A DNA stretch of 64,000 nt, taken from positions 4,692,778 to 4,756,777 of the forward strand of contig NZ_KV440950.1 in assembly GCF_001636405.1 (NCBI RefSeq), given 5' to 3'. Position 1 is the stretch's first letter; each line of letters starts with the position of its first letter. Positions 28,744 to 34,952 of this stretch are shown here, piece after piece. The notes under the pieces were generated by a model that worked only from the letters and a program-made list of their open reading frames with translations, searched no databases and was not told where the DNA came from. Origin of the DNA: Peribacillus frigoritolerans. GTDB lineage: Bacteria > Bacillota > Bacilli > Bacillales > DSM-1321. Made by a program: the position numbers and the translations under genes.

Positions 28744-28769
28744 AAAAGGGCTGCAGAAGCAGCCCTTAT
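28744..28769 (-). terminator. Terminator of the amine oxidase operon
   Basis: AAGGGCTGC pairs with GCAGCCCTT; read leftwards it is followed by TTCG and T-rich sequence. It lies 27 bases past the membrane-protein stop. Confidence 0.75.
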
Positions 28770-28795
28770 GGATGTTATTGATATTCTTGCAACAG

Positions 28796-29371
28796 CTACC
28801 CGCCATGTTGATGATGTTGCATGTCCATTTCCGAATCTCCACCAACCTTGAAATAATCACGTTCCCAAACAGCCGACGTTCCGATAATGATGATGGAGAA
28901 CATGAGGGTCAGACAGAAAGGAGCAAACCCCCTCCCACTTTTTGTCTCTTTTACATCCTCTCTTTTTATATAAAAAGTCACAAAGAATATACTGCAAAGG
29001 TAAATCAGATCCATCGAAACGAGCATGTAAGTTTGTGAATCAAGAGGCAGCATGACCCCAAGCATGGCTCCCATCATTGCCCCCATCAGGGTTGTTGACA
29101 GAGACTCCATAACCGCTGTCAGACCGAATGGTTTTCCGATGATGAAGCCTGCCACTGCACATATTGCGATGGCTAGAACGGTTAAAACCGCCAGCTTGCC
29201 GGGCATCAGGAATGACAGCATTAAACTTAAGGTTAAACTTGTCGTCATGCTTAACATCATGACCATGCATTTACCAAGGCTAACACCAATATGATCTTTT
29301 TTCAGATGGGCTTTTTTAGAAAAGTAAATTGTATAAGCCACGACTATCATAAAACTGGTCAGCAGCAGCAT
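28796..29371 (-). CDS. Met/His-rich membrane protein downstream of copper amine oxidase
   Basis: I do not recognise a named family with certainty. The 191-residue protein has about six membrane helices, two of them strongly methionine-rich (KCMVMMLSMTTSLTLSLML and LMGAMMGAMLGVML), and ends in MDMQHHQHGG. Met clusters in helices plus a His tail are typical of copper handling. It starts at 29371 after AAGGGGG, 48 bases past the amine oxidase stop, with the next terminator after it, so both are in one transcript. My inference is copper supply to, or membrane support of, the oxidase. Another reading is a general stress membrane protein with a coincidental tail. Confidence 0.7.
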   Translation of the reverse strand: MLLLTSFMIVVAYTIYFSKKAHLKKDHIGVSLGKCMVMMLSMTTSLTLSLMLSFLMPGKLAVLTVLAIAICAVAGFIIGKPFGLTAVMESLSTTLMGAMMGAMLGVMLPLDSQTYMLVSMDLIYLCSIFFVTFYIKREDVKETKSGRGFAPFCLTLMFSIIIIGTSAVWERDYFKVGGDSEMDMQHHQHGG

Positions 29372-29419
29372 TCGATTCGTTTCCCCCTTTTCGAGCAATA
29401 TTTAGTGAAACGACTGATT

Positions 29420-31372
29420 TTAATGACAGGATGAATGACCGTCCATCTGGCAAGCTGAATTCTTTGTTTTTGATGGTGGCACGTCAAGAGCTGGATTCCG
29501 ATTGAAAAAGCCCGTCGGTTTTAAAATGAAGCTAATATAAGCGGTCGGCATGACTGGCCAATCTTCAGGTCGTGTTATATGATGGTGTCCCATGTTATAC
29601 CAGACCACAACATCTTCATTTTCAATGGAGCGATCGGCTTTTACCCAATCTTCCAACCCTTCTCCCCCTGCATGTTGATTTGGGTATCGCCCTGAAGCAA
29701 ACTGTTCTTCAGGATCGAATGGCGTCACCCAAAAATGGTGTTTTAAAAATCCAGCCCGTTTTAATAAAGGCGAATCATCATGGGCGAACGGGAAACAATT
29801 CTCCCCAGCAAACAATTTATAACCAACCGGTTCCCCCAATATATTCTTTTTTGAGGGATTGACGATCTTCCAGAAGCGCGCAGTACGCAAATCAAGGTCC
29901 CGGACAGCCTCGAATTCATTTTTAAGCAAAGTAGAAACCGGATAGAAACCATTTCCATATGGGTTGTCCGGTCCCTTTTCCATGCTTTTTGTATTGACTT
30001 CATAAACTGAATTATTCATTCCATCAACCATCATATCAAGCCTCATATTAAAGAAATGCTGGTGATGTGCAGCAAATAATTGAGGTGCGACCAGATTGCC
30101 ATGCAGGTGTTTCCGGTCAGGTTCGATGGCTTGTGTATGCAATATGCCTGTCAATTTCACTTCAAACTGTATCGTCCCATCCTGAAAGAAATACCAATAA
30201 AAACCGTATTCGTAATTTCCAACAGTCGAAATGCTCGATAAGACCAATCTTCTTGAACGGCGGACTTCAACATGACCTGTCCTCCAATCCGTATGTTTCC
30301 ACCCAATTCCAAAATCCTCCTCATGCAGACAAATTGCATTTTTAATTTGAATTACATTCCCTTTACTATCCACCAGGTTCGCGTCAAAGTACTTGATCTC
30401 ACCTAGGCAGTCACACCCAAGTTCAAGTGAATTCGCCAACATGCCAATGCCGTATTCCCCTGCATCAAAAGCATTGTTCCTGTTAACCGGATCAGTCGGA
30501 TCACCATAAGGCACCACCATCTCGGATAAAGAAGCTCTATACAGGATTGGCCGCTGCACTCCATCATCATTGTAACTGACCGTATGAAGGACAAGACCCT
30601 CACGGGAGTTGAAACCAAAGCGGATATTCCATTTTTGCCAATCGATCACATGTCCTTCCGTCGTGAAACTTGGTCCTTTTGGCTGAACTATTTCCAAAGG
30701 CTTAACATCCTGCCTCATGTCACCTACTTGATCGGGTGTATAATTTCCATCAAGCGGCGGAAATGGTATGACACCTTTATCCACAATCTTGATGACTTCC
30801 ATCTTATTTAAATCGACAAGGACAAATAATCCTGAAATGGGACGTGCATAACCATTATCATATAATGATGTACGGTAATAACATAATGCCCTGACGATTC
30901 GTACATCCACTTCCTCTTCAATTCCAAAATTTCCTGCTGACCATGGATCGACCATGATATTGTCCATATCCTTAAGCCCTCTTTTGGCAAAGGCTTTTAT
31001 CATCTCAGGGTGGCTTTTCACGACTTCCTGACACTCCATGAATTCATCAGCCATTATCGATGGCTGCACTCCAGGAATCAGTTTCCATGACGTTATACTG
31101 CCTTTCGTTAAGGAAACTACAGCCTCATATGTTTTTCCCTCTTGATTATGAAGAATGATACAGAATGCTTCTCTCTTGATTTGTTCATCATCACGATAAT
31201 CCAGAACAATGGATTTTGCAGGTTCCAGTAAGCTGATGTTAGCGAAGCGGTAATGGTCATCCAATCCTTTATCACGTTTTAAAATCTGGACCGTAAGTTT
31301 AAGTTCTTCTGCCGTTAATGGATCAAGCGGGTGATTTTCCCTCGTTACTTTCACGATAGAAGTTTTTTCCAT
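29420..31372 (-). CDS. tynA: Primary-amine (copper/TPQ) oxidase
   Basis: The 650-residue protein is full length for a copper amine oxidase. The topaquinone precursor is Tyr387 in the consensus VGNYEYG, the catalytic base Asp303 lies in NAFDAGEYG, and copper ligands are the HxH pair at 437/439 (HHQHFFNMRLDM) and a later His in MGHHHITRPEDWP. It oxidises primary amines such as tyramine or phenylethylamine to aldehydes with H2O2 and ammonia. No signal peptide is seen. The final 17 residues (NSACQMDGHSSCH region) form an unusual Cys/Met/His-rich tail. The upstream aldehyde dehydrogenase would take the product. Confidence 0.95.
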   Translation of the reverse strand: MEKTSIVKVTRENHPLDPLTAEELKLTVQILKRDKGLDDHYRFANISLLEPAKSIVLDYRDDEQIKREAFCIILHNQEGKTYEAVVSLTKGSITSWKLIPGVQPSIMADEFMECQEVVKSHPEMIKAFAKRGLKDMDNIMVDPWSAGNFGIEEEVDVRIVRALCYYRTSLYDNGYARPISGLFVLVDLNKMEVIKIVDKGVIPFPPLDGNYTPDQVGDMRQDVKPLEIVQPKGPSFTTEGHVIDWQKWNIRFGFNSREGLVLHTVSYNDDGVQRPILYRASLSEMVVPYGDPTDPVNRNNAFDAGEYGIGMLANSLELGCDCLGEIKYFDANLVDSKGNVIQIKNAICLHEEDFGIGWKHTDWRTGHVEVRRSRRLVLSSISTVGNYEYGFYWYFFQDGTIQFEVKLTGILHTQAIEPDRKHLHGNLVAPQLFAAHHQHFFNMRLDMMVDGMNNSVYEVNTKSMEKGPDNPYGNGFYPVSTLLKNEFEAVRDLDLRTARFWKIVNPSKKNILGEPVGYKLFAGENCFPFAHDDSPLLKRAGFLKHHFWVTPFDPEEQFASGRYPNQHAGGEGLEDWVKADRSIENEDVVVWYNMGHHHITRPEDWPVMPTAYISFILKPTGFFNRNPALDVPPSKTKNSACQMDGHSSCH

Positions 31373-31633
31373 CTCAACCTCTCCCTTTTAGGTAAAATAT
31401 CATTCTATCCATTAAGTAAACTTCCCCTCGAAGTGCCTCGTGCATAAAGTGCAAAATTTTATTTGCCTACCTCATCATCTTTCCCGGAAACTGATGTTGA
31501 CTCTTTGACCCAACAATATTCAATATGTTGAAGATAGCCAATATCAGTAAACACATCCCACTCATACCGATTTATCAAGCGGATAGCTGGAATTCAACTC
31601 AATCAAGCTGCCCATTAGGGCGCGTCCCTGCCC

Positions 31634-33109
31634 TTAAACTCCATACCAGTTCAAGCCCTGCTCATTCAAATCGATCCACACATTTTTTGTTTCCGTGTAC
31701 ATATCCATCGCTTGGATACCCAGTTCCCTTCCGAAACCGCTTTGCTTTCTGCCGCCAAAAGGTGCTGCACTATCAAGCATGCTAAACGTGTTCACATATA
31801 CCGTCCCCGCTTTTAACCCCCTTACCATCCGGTGCGCCCGTTTTAAATCATTGGTCCATAAACCTGAAGCCAATCCATACAAGCTGTCATTTGCCTTGTT
31901 CAATGCATCCTCTTCATCTTTGAACTTGATAACCGACAAAACCGGCCCAAAAATTTCTTCGCGGGCAATTGTCATTTCATTGGTAACGTTCTCAAAAACA
32001 GTGGGCGTGAAGAAATAGCCATTTCCTGCCTCCGTGTTTCTTTCTCCTCCCATGACAAGATTAGCTCCCTGTTCCAGACCGGCCGCTACATATTGTTGAA
32101 TTTTGTCAAGTTGCTGCAAGGAAACCTGCGGTCCCATTTGGGTCGTATGGTCTAAGGGATTCCCTACACGGATGGATCGTGCTTTCTTCACGAATGATTC
32201 CATGAATCGATCATATATGCTTTCCTGCACAAGAAGTCTTGTACCCGAGGCGCATACTTGACCTTGTGCGAAGAAGATACCAAACATGGATCCATTCACT
32301 GCATTATCAATTGAAGCATCATCAAAAACTATATTTGGTGATTTCCCCCCTAATTCAAGGCTAATTGGTTTTAAGTTCTTACTTGCTGCCTGCATGATTA
32401 GGCGGCCAGTATTCGTTGAACCCGTAAAAGCGATTTTATCGACGTCAGGATGGGAGGAGAGGGCATCACCCGCTATCTTCCCGTATCCCGGAATGACATT
32501 GATGACTCCATCTGGAATTCCGACTTCTTGAAAGATTTTAACCAATTCCAGAATGCTTACAGGAGTTTGCTCAGCTGGTTTTATCACAATCGTATTGCCT
32601 GCCGCTAAAGCAGGGGCAAGCTTCCACATCGTCAGCATAAGCGGAAAGTTCCAAGGCACTATGGCCCCTATGACACCGATTGGCTCCTTCAAAGTAAAAT
32701 TGAACCGGTTATTGGGAGAGGCAAGGGTACTTCCCTGGACTTTATTGGCTAATCCCGCATAAAATTCGAGTACATCTATCATGGCTGGCATCGCAATGAA
32801 TTTTGTTTCATTGATTGGCAGCCCGTTATCTTGTGATTCGACTTCGGCGAGCATATCGGCTTTCTCCCACAGTGCCTGTGCGACTTTATTCAATAACCTC
32901 CCTCTATCCCCCGGTGCCATTTCAGCCCACGGGCCTGATTCAAACGCCCTTCGTGCAGCTTTTACCGCTAAATCAACATCTTCCGGACCTGCCTCGGCAA
33001 CTATAGCATTCACTTCATCAGTTGCAGGATTAAATGATTCAAATGTTCTTCCAGATATTGAATCAACCCATCTCCCATCAATGAACAATCGATAGTTTTT
33101 CCCCATCAT
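31634..33109 (-). CDS. NAD(P)-dependent aldehyde dehydrogenase
   Basis: The 491-residue protein has the usual ALDH length and signatures: PWNFPLMLTMWKLAPALAAG near residue 152, FTGSTNTGR near 230, the general-base LELGGKSPN near 254 and the nucleophile in FFAQGQVCASG near 287. GGRKQSGFGRE lies near the C-terminus. Placed 260 bases upstream of the amine oxidase on the same strand and downstream of an AraC-type regulator, it probably oxidises aryl- or alkyl-acetaldehydes released by the oxidase. It begins with two ATG codons after AAAGGGG. Confidence 0.94.
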   Translation of the reverse strand: MMGKNYRLFIDGRWVDSISGRTFESFNPATDEVNAIVAEAGPEDVDLAVKAARRAFESGPWAEMAPGDRGRLLNKVAQALWEKADMLAEVESQDNGLPINETKFIAMPAMIDVLEFYAGLANKVQGSTLASPNNRFNFTLKEPIGVIGAIVPWNFPLMLTMWKLAPALAAGNTIVIKPAEQTPVSILELVKIFQEVGIPDGVINVIPGYGKIAGDALSSHPDVDKIAFTGSTNTGRLIMQAASKNLKPISLELGGKSPNIVFDDASIDNAVNGSMFGIFFAQGQVCASGTRLLVQESIYDRFMESFVKKARSIRVGNPLDHTTQMGPQVSLQQLDKIQQYVAAGLEQGANLVMGGERNTEAGNGYFFTPTVFENVTNEMTIAREEIFGPVLSVIKFKDEEDALNKANDSLYGLASGLWTNDLKRAHRMVRGLKAGTVYVNTFSMLDSAAPFGGRKQSGFGRELGIQAMDMYTETKNVWIDLNEQGLNWYGV

Positions 33110-33230
33110 CGTTTCCCCTTTCTATTGGACAATCAAAACAACAATCACATATCTATTAACACAATAAGGCTGGGCACTATTTTTTTATTGTAAAAAACGG
33201 AACATTCAGAATATTTTTTATGCATTAAAA

Positions 33231-33270
33231 CCAAAAAAAAGATCCTCGTCACCATGAACGGGATCCTTCA
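33231..33270 (-). terminator. Terminator of the AraC-type regulator gene
   Basis: An imperfect hairpin (GGATCCCGT with ACGAGGATC) read leftwards runs into TTTTTTTTT. Confidence 0.7.
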
Positions 33271-33296
33271 AATGTAATCACTATATAACAAGAACG

Positions 33297-34134
33297 TTAT
33301 ATTGGGTTTGAAAGTTTCTTTGAAACAGCATCGATGAATTCAGTAGGAGTCAGATAACCAAATTTTTTAAATTCATTAATTAAATGTGATTGATCAAAAT
33401 ACCCATTCTCATTAATCACATCCCAAACTGTAAAGACCTGTTTATTCAATAACATATGCAGGGAGTTTTGGAACCTCACTATTTGGCTGAATAATTTGGG
33501 CGGCATCCCTACATGGGCATCGAATTGCTTTCGCAAGTATCTTGTAGAGTATCCGGTCTCAGCAGCTAATTGATTCATATTTACATTTCCTTTAGAAGAA
33601 TATATTTTGTTCAAGGAATATTCTATAATTGCCGGCAAACCGTTACACGTAAAAATATTAATACCTATTTCTTCTTTGAACAGCTTTATTCTTCCATGAA
33701 AATCCCGTTCAGTTATTAACCTTTCCATAATGGTAGGTTCAATTTTTAACATATCAGCTAAAGGGATTTGGCGATCGATTACCTCCTTCATGGAATATTT
33801 AAAATGCTGGGTTTCCTGCTTAGGCATAAACCTCACACCGAAATATTCACAATTAGCCTGAAAGTTTATCGTTTTGTACTTGAGGACAGTCCCGTACACA
33901 TCTGCGGAAGGTCTTTCGGGATCGCAATAAAATAATATGTCGATGCACCCATCCGGAATGACGGACATTGGATTCATTAAATCCCGATTGATTTTAAATT
34001 GATAGAACAATGTAGTGGAATGGTCAGAATTTCTTTGTTTATATTCTATATAATAATCTGATAGAATCTCGAATTCCGGTTGAAATGGAAAATAGTCGAA
34101 GTTATTGAAACCCTGAATGATGCTCAGCTACCAT
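33297..34134 (-). pseudogene. AraC family regulator with an apparent 1-base frameshift
   Basis: The main frame (from about 34116 down to 33297) encodes a protein with an N-terminal sensing domain (VIPDGCIDILFY motif) and a C-terminal AraC helix-turn-helix pair (MNQLAAETGYSTRYLRKQFD, then YFDQSHLINEFKKFGY). Its only internal start candidates (TTG at 34010, or later ATGs) would cut into a coherent sequence upstream that reads GFNNFDYFPFQPEFEIL and continues to YYIEYK. An ATG at 34134 with AAAGGAG before it begins a second frame (MVAEHHSGF) that stops after ten codons. Removing one base of the CCC run at 34111-34113 joins them into 278 codons, a normal length. It may be a true mutation or a sequencing error. 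It lies next to the aldehyde dehydrogenase and is probably its regulator. Confidence 0.72.
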
Positions 34135-34469
34135 CACGCTCCTTTTATATTACACTGTCACCAAAGCCTTTTTACCACTGCAATGGGCTTGCATTTGCCC
34201 CAATTACTACAGTAATCGTTTGGGCTGAGTGGTCATCCGCATCACTACACGGGTCGGAGAGCCGTTCATCAATCTTCCCACCCCTGGCCATTATCAATAT
34301 GAGCGTTGTTTTTATAATTTTCGACAAGTATTTCCAAATCCCTTTTGACTGAAAGATTTAAAACAATACCCAACTTACAGAACTGTGAAAATAAAAAAAG
34401 CAAACCGTAGTCAAGGCTTGCACAGTTTATAGACAAAAGATTTCGGAATGGTCAATACCACAGATGATT
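34135..34469. other. Intergenic stretch upstream of the AraC-type gene
   Basis: About 335 bases with no supported gene; open frames here have no ribosome-binding site. The right edge borders the repeat mosaic. Confidence 0.5.
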
Positions 34470-34530
34470 GCGGGAGGAGACTTGGCAGACTATTGGCGGG
34501 AAGGAACGGATTTCCTGATACTAACTGCAA
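34470..34530 (+). repeat. Family A repeat fragment
   Basis: Contains GGAGACTTGGCAGAC and GGAACGGATTTCCTGATAC, matching the right half of the family A unit at 34749-34868. It is interrupted on its right by the family B element. Confidence 0.75.
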
Positions 34531-34531
34531 C

Positions 34532-34660
34532 GTTGATTTCCACTCCAGGCACTCGCTTTCCGCGGGCGGTCCGTGAGCCTCCTCGGCGCCTATGCGCCTG
34601 CGGGGTCTCACTTGGACACGCTTTTCCCGCAGGAGTCTCGCACCTTACGTTCCAATCAAC
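34532..34660 (+). repeat. Family B intergenic repeat, copy 1
   Basis: A 129-bp GC-rich block bounded by GTTGATT and AATCAAC. The core reads CGCTTTCCGCGGGCGGTCC, then CTCGGCGCC and GCCTGCGGGGTCTC. It matches the copy at 45745-45871. The reverse complement aligns loosely with family A (GAGACCCCGCAGGCGC, then CGAGGAGGCT), so A and B share an ancestor. Confidence 0.88.
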
Positions 34661-34748
34661 TTTGTTTTATAATTCAGATGGAACTGGAATCAAAACTTTT
34701 AAATTAGACTTGGTTATCAATGGTTTTTACTGTTTTATAATCCTTACT

Positions 34749-34868
34749 GGATTGAAGAAATTAGTGGCACTCCCGCGGATAACTGTCTAGCCAAGACACC
34801 ACAGACGCTTTCGGCAAGGAGGCTTGGCAGACTGTTGGCGGGAAGGAACGGATTTCCTGATACCAACT
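34749..34868 (+). repeat. Family A repeat, single divergent copy
   Basis: Begins GGATTGAAGAAATTAGTGG and ends GATACCAACTGAAC. It has the same order of blocks as the 46-kb units, with CTGTCTAGCCAAGACACCA at the centre in place of CTGGCTAGCCGAGACCCC. Confidence 0.85.
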
Positions 34869-34877
34869 GAACTTTTT

Positions 34878-34930
34878 TAAAAAAGAAAAAAATGTAGACA
34901 AATTCGATGAAAATCGAATTTGTCTACATT
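34878..34930 (-). terminator. Terminator of kimA
   Basis: An 18-bp perfect stem (AATGTAGACAAATTCGAT with its complement at 34913-34930) read leftwards is followed by TTTTTTTCTTTTTT. Confidence 0.93.
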
Positions 34931-34952
34931 CTGCTATCTTAAGATATGGAAC

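Follow-up and report, generated by a model that had tools for sequence, protein, structure and literature searches.

A methionine-rich membrane protein coupled to cytoplasmic copper amine oxidases of Bacillales: a candidate for copper supply

The stretch of DNA studied here, hereafter the window, is a 64,000-nucleotide segment of Peribacillus frigoritolerans (NCBI RefSeq assembly GCF_001636405.1, contig NZ_KV440950.1, positions 4,692,778 to 4,756,777 of the forward strand). On its − strand, a gene for a copper amine oxidase (CuAO) is directly followed by a gene for a small membrane protein rich in methionine and histidine, which we call MEM. The tight coupling of MEM to CuAOs that stay in the cytoplasm is well supported, and so is its link to copper; both rest on synteny, on the control that exported CuAOs provide, on cupredoxin fusions and on copper-gene neighbourhoods. 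We consider it probable, with some reserve, that MEM serves as a dedicated copper transporter, or copper-transfer protein, of the membrane for a CuAO that has to receive its metal in the cytoplasm.

Association of MEM with cytoplasmic amine oxidases

The co-occurrence of the two genes, which a previous reading of the window from its letters alone (the sequence-only reading) had put forward as a check, was examined in 397 genomes of the same order: as judged by coordinates, MEM lies directly downstream and on the same strand of all 11 full-length CuAOs of the 650-residue type (counting one MEM, in G371, that is split into two ORFs), and beside none of the four CuAOs of the exported type of about 770 residues. 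At the level of the family, 8 of 43 genomes carry a 650-residue CuAO and all eight have a MEM of the kind of about 190 residues (frame-broken in G014), an intact form of which occurs in none of the other genomes; the remaining MEM matches in these 43 genomes are cupredoxin fusions, short ycn-type forms and broken remnants. A pattern search with MEM alone in 84,980 species genomes, whose reach is limited to close relatives, gave 25 loci. A CuAO adjoins MEM in 17 of them, and in the Caryophanon locus (L071) it is the third gene upstream. The cluster is found in Peribacillus, Niallia, Neobacillus, Domibacillus, Robertmurraya, Terribacillus, Planomicrobium, Ammoniphilus, Aquibacillus and other genera; in one genome (G010) MEM is located beyond a divergent AraC gene.

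The coupling is also visible in the phylogeny of MEM, computed from 75 of 95 rows after 20 had been dropped (pseudogenes, very short rows and near-copies). All 25 CuAO-linked rows fall on one 33-row side of this unrooted tree (split 97/85) and none among the other 42, and the CuAO label changes five times on the tree, compared with a mean of 21 when labels are shuffled.

Exported CuAOs act as a natural control. We classed 52 full-length CuAOs from Bacillota loci into 27 without a signal peptide and 25 others, 22 of which pass the hydrophobicity threshold, while L127, L201 and L216 lie just under it and have signal-like N-termini as judged by eye. Fragments (L044, L046, L128, L129, L131, L214) and loci with no CuAO match (L045, L130, L215) were left out, and four further exported-type CuAO matches that come without a locus stay outside this classing. 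A partner gene lies directly downstream of 24 of the 27 signal-less CuAOs and of none of the 25 others (Fisher test, 7e-12, relatedness not being corrected for). These partners comprise 13 MEMs (frame-broken in L034, reduced to a remnant in L035 and split in L125) and 11 members of another family described below. As for the three signal-less CuAOs that have no partner downstream, MEM lies on the other side in L030 and elsewhere in L036, and L194 has none. The same division is seen in the sequence end of the enzymes: a cysteine is present within the last 20 residues of 27/27 signal-less CuAOs versus 0/25 others, so that the exported enzymes lack both the Cys tail and the membrane partner.

Organization of the locus

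The features of the window that matter here are as follows.

28796..29371, − strand: MEM gene, encoding a Met/His-rich protein of 191 residues with six transmembrane (TM) helices; most likely ATG start at 29371
29246..29269, − strand: TM2 motif C35-x2-M38-x3-M42 of MEM (residue conservation)
29051..29086, − strand: TM4 signature MGAMMGAMLGVM of MEM (M96–M107), with overlapping MxxxM and GxxxG motifs (residue conservation)
28799..28828, − strand: His-rich C-terminal end of MEM, MDMQHHQHGG, predicted to lie outside (Lys/Arg counts per loop)
29420..31372, − strand: CuAO of 650 residues, similar to the phenylethylamine oxidase of Arthrobacter globiformis (AGAO), without a signal peptide (Pfam, NCBIfam)
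29423..29476, − strand: C-terminal tail of CuAO, PSKTKNSACQMDGHSSCH
31634..33109, − strand: aldehyde dehydrogenase (ALDH; Pfam Aldedh, 7e-187)
33297..34010, − strand: AraC-type regulator (Pfam)
28746..28767, − strand: terminator-like site 3′ of MEM, with a 9-bp stem (terminator scan)

The CuAO, the ALDH and the six-helix membrane protein were recovered where the sequence-only reading had placed them, on the basis of Pfam and NCBIfam matches and of a structure model. Read along the − strand, the order is AraC-type regulator, ALDH, CuAO, MEM and the terminator-like site; in other genera the AraC-type relatives are divergent from CuAO. The membrane ORF had originally been listed as 28796–29398, with a TTG start at 29398. 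Its end stands, whereas this TTG is most likely too early: the presence of AAAGGGGG upstream and the agreement with the start of relatives favour the ATG at 29371. The gap between CuAO and MEM measures 48 nt and holds no terminator-like site, and a common transcript is plausible from this arrangement; the scan yielded 9 sites in total compared with 5.7 in shuffled sequences, two of them inside the CuAO and MEM genes. The best NCBIfam scores of the ALDH are for betaine-aldehyde and phenylacetaldehyde dehydrogenases, all 25 models listed being below their cut-offs, and this enzyme likely catalyses the next step of the amine pathway.

Five Peribacillus genomes (L084–L088) are devoid of this CuAO, with no AraC, ALDH or CuAO match in the 8–12 kb read, and retain remnants of MEM that are truncated (L084, L087 and L088), degraded (L085) or frame-broken (L086). 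Their flanks match the window on both sides in L084, L085 and L086, and one side is well covered in L087 and L088. Compared with window positions 28795–34940, the five loci have differing break points inside or just beyond MEM, which suggests a repeated loss of the AraC–ALDH–CuAO pathway in Peribacillus relatives. Elsewhere, in G017 and G029, the MEM next to CuAO is a remnant and an intact MEM is found at another place in the same genome. We count both patterns in favour of the role proposed for MEM below, with the reserve stated there for the truncated Peribacillus copies.

The amine oxidase and its tail

The identity of the window CuAO is unambiguous in Pfam (PF01179, Cu_amine_oxid; 1e-166, 555 bits for a cut-off of 27) and in NCBIfam, where it matches PRK11504 over its full length (2e-292, 971.5 bits for a cut-off of 651). 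It belongs to the PRK11504/AGAO branch (E-value of 5e-159 for the match with AGAO). Residues N386, Y387 and Y389, within an N-Y-[DE]-Y motif that is kept, and the histidines H437, H439 and H598 are invariant across 25 CuAOs; we take the former to be the topaquinone (TPQ) motif and the latter to be the copper ligands. The stop-to-stop frame has 655 codons for a protein of 650 residues and therefore leaves no room for an upstream signal peptide, in agreement with the cytoplasmic oxidase that had been proposed.

The tail calls for a correction. The sequence-only reading held that such a Cys/Met/His-rich extension was absent from typical family ends, and one might have thought it unique to the window enzyme; both ideas are ruled out, since a Cys/His tail is the norm among the signal-less enzymes, and AGAO has it too (its construct ends with SGSHCHG). 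It also occurs in 10 of the 13 CuAOs of other phyla listed. The 620-residue PDB chains of AGAO seem to end ahead of the tail, which is therefore probably not needed for folding.

Sequence and predicted topology of MEM

Neither the window MEM nor 22 homologue rows match a Pfam or NCBIfam family above cut-off; a Phage_holin_2 match, below cut-off (22.7 bits instead of 32) and present in one of the 22 rows, was dismissed. No convincing PDB relative was found by sequence (best E-value of 0.37). In agreement with the absence of any described function that had been noted, we found no description of MEM, of its pairing with CuAO or of the copper supply of CuAO in the open-licence PMC literature.

The AlphaFold2 model, computed with the 22 homologues, consists of six helices (mean pLDDT of 78.9). 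The two Met-rich helices and the His-rich C-terminus reported earlier are genuine peculiarities of the protein when it is set against 106 other membrane ORFs from the loci retrieved. Its Met content is 9.9% (mean 3.7%; equalled by one ORF), it contains five MxxxM motifs (mean 0.31, maximum 4; 0/106 as high) and its last 20 residues include three histidines (mean 0.31; one ORF as high). The Met arrays of TM2 (M-x3-M) and TM4 (MGxMMGAMLGxM, in which MxxxM and GxxxG overlap) are conserved: M38, M96, M100, G101, M103 and M107 are found in 75/75 homologues, M99 and T64 in 74/75 and M42 in 71/75.

When Lys and Arg are counted loop by loop across the 33-row branch (2.45, 0.39, 0.21, 0.03 and 4.06 for loops 1 to 5), loops 1 and 5 come out inside, and both ends of the protein are hence predicted outside. 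This C-out topology fits the relatives that have a cupredoxin at their C-terminus. With this topology TM2 would meet the cytoplasm at Cys35, a residue present in 25 of the 33 rows of the CuAO-linked branch compared with 1 of the 42 other rows.

A copper-linked superfamily

MEM belongs to a broad copper-linked superfamily of Bacillales, a conclusion that is well supported. A MEM match exists in 163 of the 397 genomes versus any CuAO match in 18, so that homologues of the membrane protein are indeed widespread without an amine oxidase, a finding that the sequence-only reading would have counted as refuting its proposal. This applies to the superfamily as a whole; within the CuAO-linked branch, MEM without a CuAO match occurs in two Cytobacillus and three Ureibacillus genomes.

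Some members carry a C-terminal cupredoxin domain, recognized by Pfam in L013 (Cupredoxin_1, 1.7e-12) and L017 (Copper-bind, 1.3e-9). Fusions of this kind, of about 300 residues, were seen in Bacillales at L013, L014, L017, L018 and L165–L168, the cupredoxin being assigned by motif where Pfam did not provide it; several have CsoR, Csp-like, multicopper oxidase or two-component genes nearby.

Outside the CuAO loci, CsoR is encoded within 10 kb of the superfamily member chosen in 10 of 33 genomes (0.44 expected) and DUF326, which is presumably the Pfam family of the Csp3 proteins, in 8 of 33 (at most 0.24 expected). These 33 genomes are a hand-picked part of the 163 that have a match, left from 37 after removal of four near-copies; the distances were read by hand, and the test was chosen after a weaker one on immediate neighbours. 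Csp3 proteins are described as cytosolic copper stores (PMC5171941). Distant short members adjoin YtkA, CopC and DUF1775 genes. Three such proteins of 137–139 residues were noted (L079:5884-6297, L081:5823-6242 and L080:5903-6322), those of L079 and L081 being beside YtkA and CopC–CopD-like genes and that of L079 less than 6 kb from DUF1775 (YcnI). Pfam identifies CopC and DUF1775 in the L079 locus, with CopD just below cut-off. A MEM of the CuAO branch, L132, is likewise near YcnI/CopC/CopD-like genes, as judged by eye.

Other membrane partners of cytoplasmic amine oxidases

The second partner family comes from a bacterial family (f48) that we take to be Paenibacillaceae because one partner protein found in it (L196) has the same sequence as that of Paenibacillus cellulosilyticus (L173). 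Its 295 genomes hold 12 full-length cytoplasmic CuAOs, and within 70 nt after 11 of them comes a gene for a Met/His-rich protein of 117–160 residues, with about three TM helices and the motif HLxHWLxxPxLMG...MHxHH. The copies scanned match no Pfam family above cut-off, and the protein shows no sign of being a MEM relative (hhalign probability of 1.1%).

In the same bacterial family, the exported CuAOs of L204, L208 and L210 (about 690 residues) are followed by a Met/His-rich protein of 315–360 residues, with one N-terminal hydrophobic stretch and FQHIHP/FQHVHP and LHVHP or IHVHP motifs. No Pfam match was obtained for the copies of L204 and L210. This protein may handle copper outside the cell as a partner of the exported CuAO.

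A tblastn search of plasmids with MEM gave no match at 1e-5. At 15 plasmid-borne CuAO loci, hand-picked from 91 matching records, the gene next to CuAO codes for a Caa3_CtaG protein in three cases (two Acinetobacter and Gemmobacter), for DsbD_2 in Agrobacterium and for the three-TM protein in Paenibacillus. Two Paenarthrobacter have DUF5134 as the second downstream gene, DsbD_2 is the third gene from CuAO in Halarchaeum, and small membrane-type ORFs without a name, identified by eye, lie 1.5–1.7 kb downstream in two Rhodococcus. No such partner was seen at the CuAO loci of Rubrobacter, Rhizobium SL42, Salinigranum, Halovenus and Natronosalvus. A candidate partner thus lies within about three genes at 10/15 loci and directly next to CuAO at 5/15, counts that carry no chance estimate.

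This picture is suggestive of copper membrane proteins having been repeatedly recruited to the same job, and unrelated bacteria may solve the copper supply of CuAO with different membrane proteins. We may go one step further and propose, tentatively and as something still short of probable, that dedicated copper-entry membrane proteins serve cytoplasmic CuAOs throughout bacteria. Unrelated families would have taken on this role on many occasions: MEM in Bacillales, the three-TM protein in Paenibacillaceae, CtaG-like proteins in Acinetobacter and Gemmobacter, DsbD_2 in Agrobacterium, and DUF5134 and other small membrane proteins in actinomycetes. MEM would then found a new class of copper transporters with a Met ladder, and the Cys/His tail would be a general cytoplasmic acceptor.

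Proposed function of MEM and alternatives

Partnered enzymes need metallation in a cytoplasm in which little free copper is thought to be present (PMC2147054), and for this reason copper supply is the simplest role for MEM, with import as its likeliest form. From the dedicated copper-delivery module that the sequence-only reading had imagined, the copper link and the coupling to CuAO remain and exclusivity to CuAO does not; delivery or import, and thereby transport and its direction, is what we infer, MEM probably supplying copper as an importer. Copper would be caught outside by the His-rich end, would move along the Met ladder of TM4 (M107, M103, M100/M99, M96) and M42 and M38 of TM2, and would reach Cys35 in most CuAO-linked forms. 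It could then be handed to apo-CuAO, directly or through the copper pool of the cell, possibly via the Cys/His tail. CuAO would form its own topaquinone, and the aldehyde product would pass to the neighbouring ALDH.

Several observations weigh against this scheme. The tail is present where MEM is absent and therefore is no MEM-specific dock. The MEM model has no Foldseek match with an E-value below 0.001 (best 0.21). Cys35, found in 20 of the 25 CuAO-linked rows, is missing from the other five. The immediate neighbours of superfamily members include about 8/66 copper families compared with 3/66 for the outer genes (the 25 commonest being listed for each), a result that is at best suggestive. 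Genes of the MEM type exist without a CuAO match in two Cytobacillus, three Ureibacillus and one Lentibacillus genome, which rules out a restriction of MEM to CuAO genomes; the Cytobacillus and Ureibacillus members fall inside the CuAO-linked branch. Conversely, a cytoplasmic CuAO with a tail has no partner in G851 (L194), and in G370 (L171) a frame-broken CuAO of the tailed type has no MEM on that stretch, this copy being another decaying one. Finally, in three of the five Peribacillus loci MEM is simply cut short, perhaps by the deletion itself, and is therefore weak evidence; decay of MEM without CuAO is supported by two cases only.

Two of these orphan settings can be described further. 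The MEMs of Ureibacillus L067, L069 and L070, which have the His tail in genomes with no CuAO, occupy a conserved place adjoining what appears by eye to be a superoxide dismutase gene. In the two Cytobacillus genomes, a 185-residue protein is encoded beside MEM on the opposite strand (L054:7309-7869 and L060:7102-7656); its L054 copy has no Pfam match.

The superfamily is often found in CsoR/CopA/Csp islands, which could have a part in resistance; efflux or protection is therefore possible. MEM would then be a copper exporter or an outward-facing tolerance protein, guarding a cell that harbours an H2O2-producing cytoplasmic copper enzyme without supplying this enzyme. The proximity of superfamily members to CsoR, Csp-like DUF326, P-type ATPases and multicopper oxidase would suit such a protein, as would the fusions to predicted outside cupredoxins, which resistance proteins might have; in Bacillus subtilis, another small membrane protein, CtaM, has been suggested to export copper (PMC13344008). 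However, exported CuAOs also need copper, yet have no such partner, relatives of MEM lie by YcnI/CopC/CopD-like genes whose B. subtilis counterpart YcnJ is a proposed importer (PMC13344008), and most CuAO-linked forms have their cysteine at the predicted cytoplasmic end. We consider export unlikely, although it deserves attention.

The membrane docking of CuAO that the sequence-only reading offered as an alternative to delivery found no specific support. A scaffold for which copper binding is incidental or null could be imagined from the neighbouring genes, the Cys/His tail and the shortness of the membrane protein, but the strict Met array, the cupredoxin fusions and the copper neighbourhoods would be superfluous for docking, MEM is found without CuAO and its His-rich end is predicted to face outwards, on the side where the enzyme is not; this makes docking very improbable. 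Even less credit can be given to a transporter of the amine, the aldehyde or the ammonium of the pathway, with Met residues that are structural: MEM does sit in a catabolic cluster and permeases are also seen beside CuAO, but its relatives are located by copper genes and some have cupredoxin domains.

Copper supply by MEM, if correct, bears on a wider question. The authors of work on Csp3 mention 'currently unknown cytosolic copper enzymes' (PMC5519932), and in the literature searched we found no answer as to the in vivo metal source of cytoplasmic copper enzymes such as AGAO. The CuAO–partner gene pairs are candidates for this supply, with the exported enzymes as a natural control, and they hint at a function for a large unnamed family of copper-linked membrane proteins in Bacillales.

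Comparison with known systems

The eukaryotic Ctr1/Ctr transporters have three TM helices and a cytosolic HCH end. MEM resembles them as a small Met-lined membrane protein with MxxxM and GxxxG motifs and a Cys/His motif on the receiving side, and differs from Ctr1 by its six TM helices and a His end predicted outside. The two are not homologous by any test applied here: MEM has no Pfam Ctr match, and the Foldseek search at the threshold given above is equally negative. DUF420, the family to be considered for CtaM, is not among the Pfam matches of MEM.

CcoA/CalT, the importer of the major facilitator superfamily (MFS) for cbb3 oxidase, offers a parallel for a copper supply dedicated to one enzyme, with MxxxM in a membrane helix (PMC6362234). 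In CcoA-like transporters, the combination of MxxxM and HxxxM is said to be strongly predictive of copper import (PMC6362234). MxxxM is present in MEM. However, CcoA is an MFS protein, whereas MEM, with six TM helices and 191 residues, has no MFS match above cut-off, the one weak hit being to an exception model (E-value of 0.003, cut-off of 999 bits).

A further comparison is with YcnJ/CopD and YcnI. In B. subtilis, YcnJ, with YcnI, is required under copper starvation and has been proposed to import copper (PMC13344008). Like YcnJ, MEM would be a Bacillales membrane protein that handles copper when copper is scarce, and the likeness extends to the CopC, YtkA and DUF1775 genes next to distant MEM relatives and to the surroundings of L132. 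No CopD (PF05425) or CopC domain was matched in the 22 MEM rows at an E-value of 0.01, and MEM is tied to a soluble amine oxidase rather than to respiratory oxidases. On the enzyme side, AGAO and the window CuAO share the same branch and both end in Cys/His. The five actinobacterial loci examined differ from the window in that none has a MEM: DUF5134 is present in two, the small membrane-type ORF in the two Rhodococcus, and no partner in Rubrobacter.

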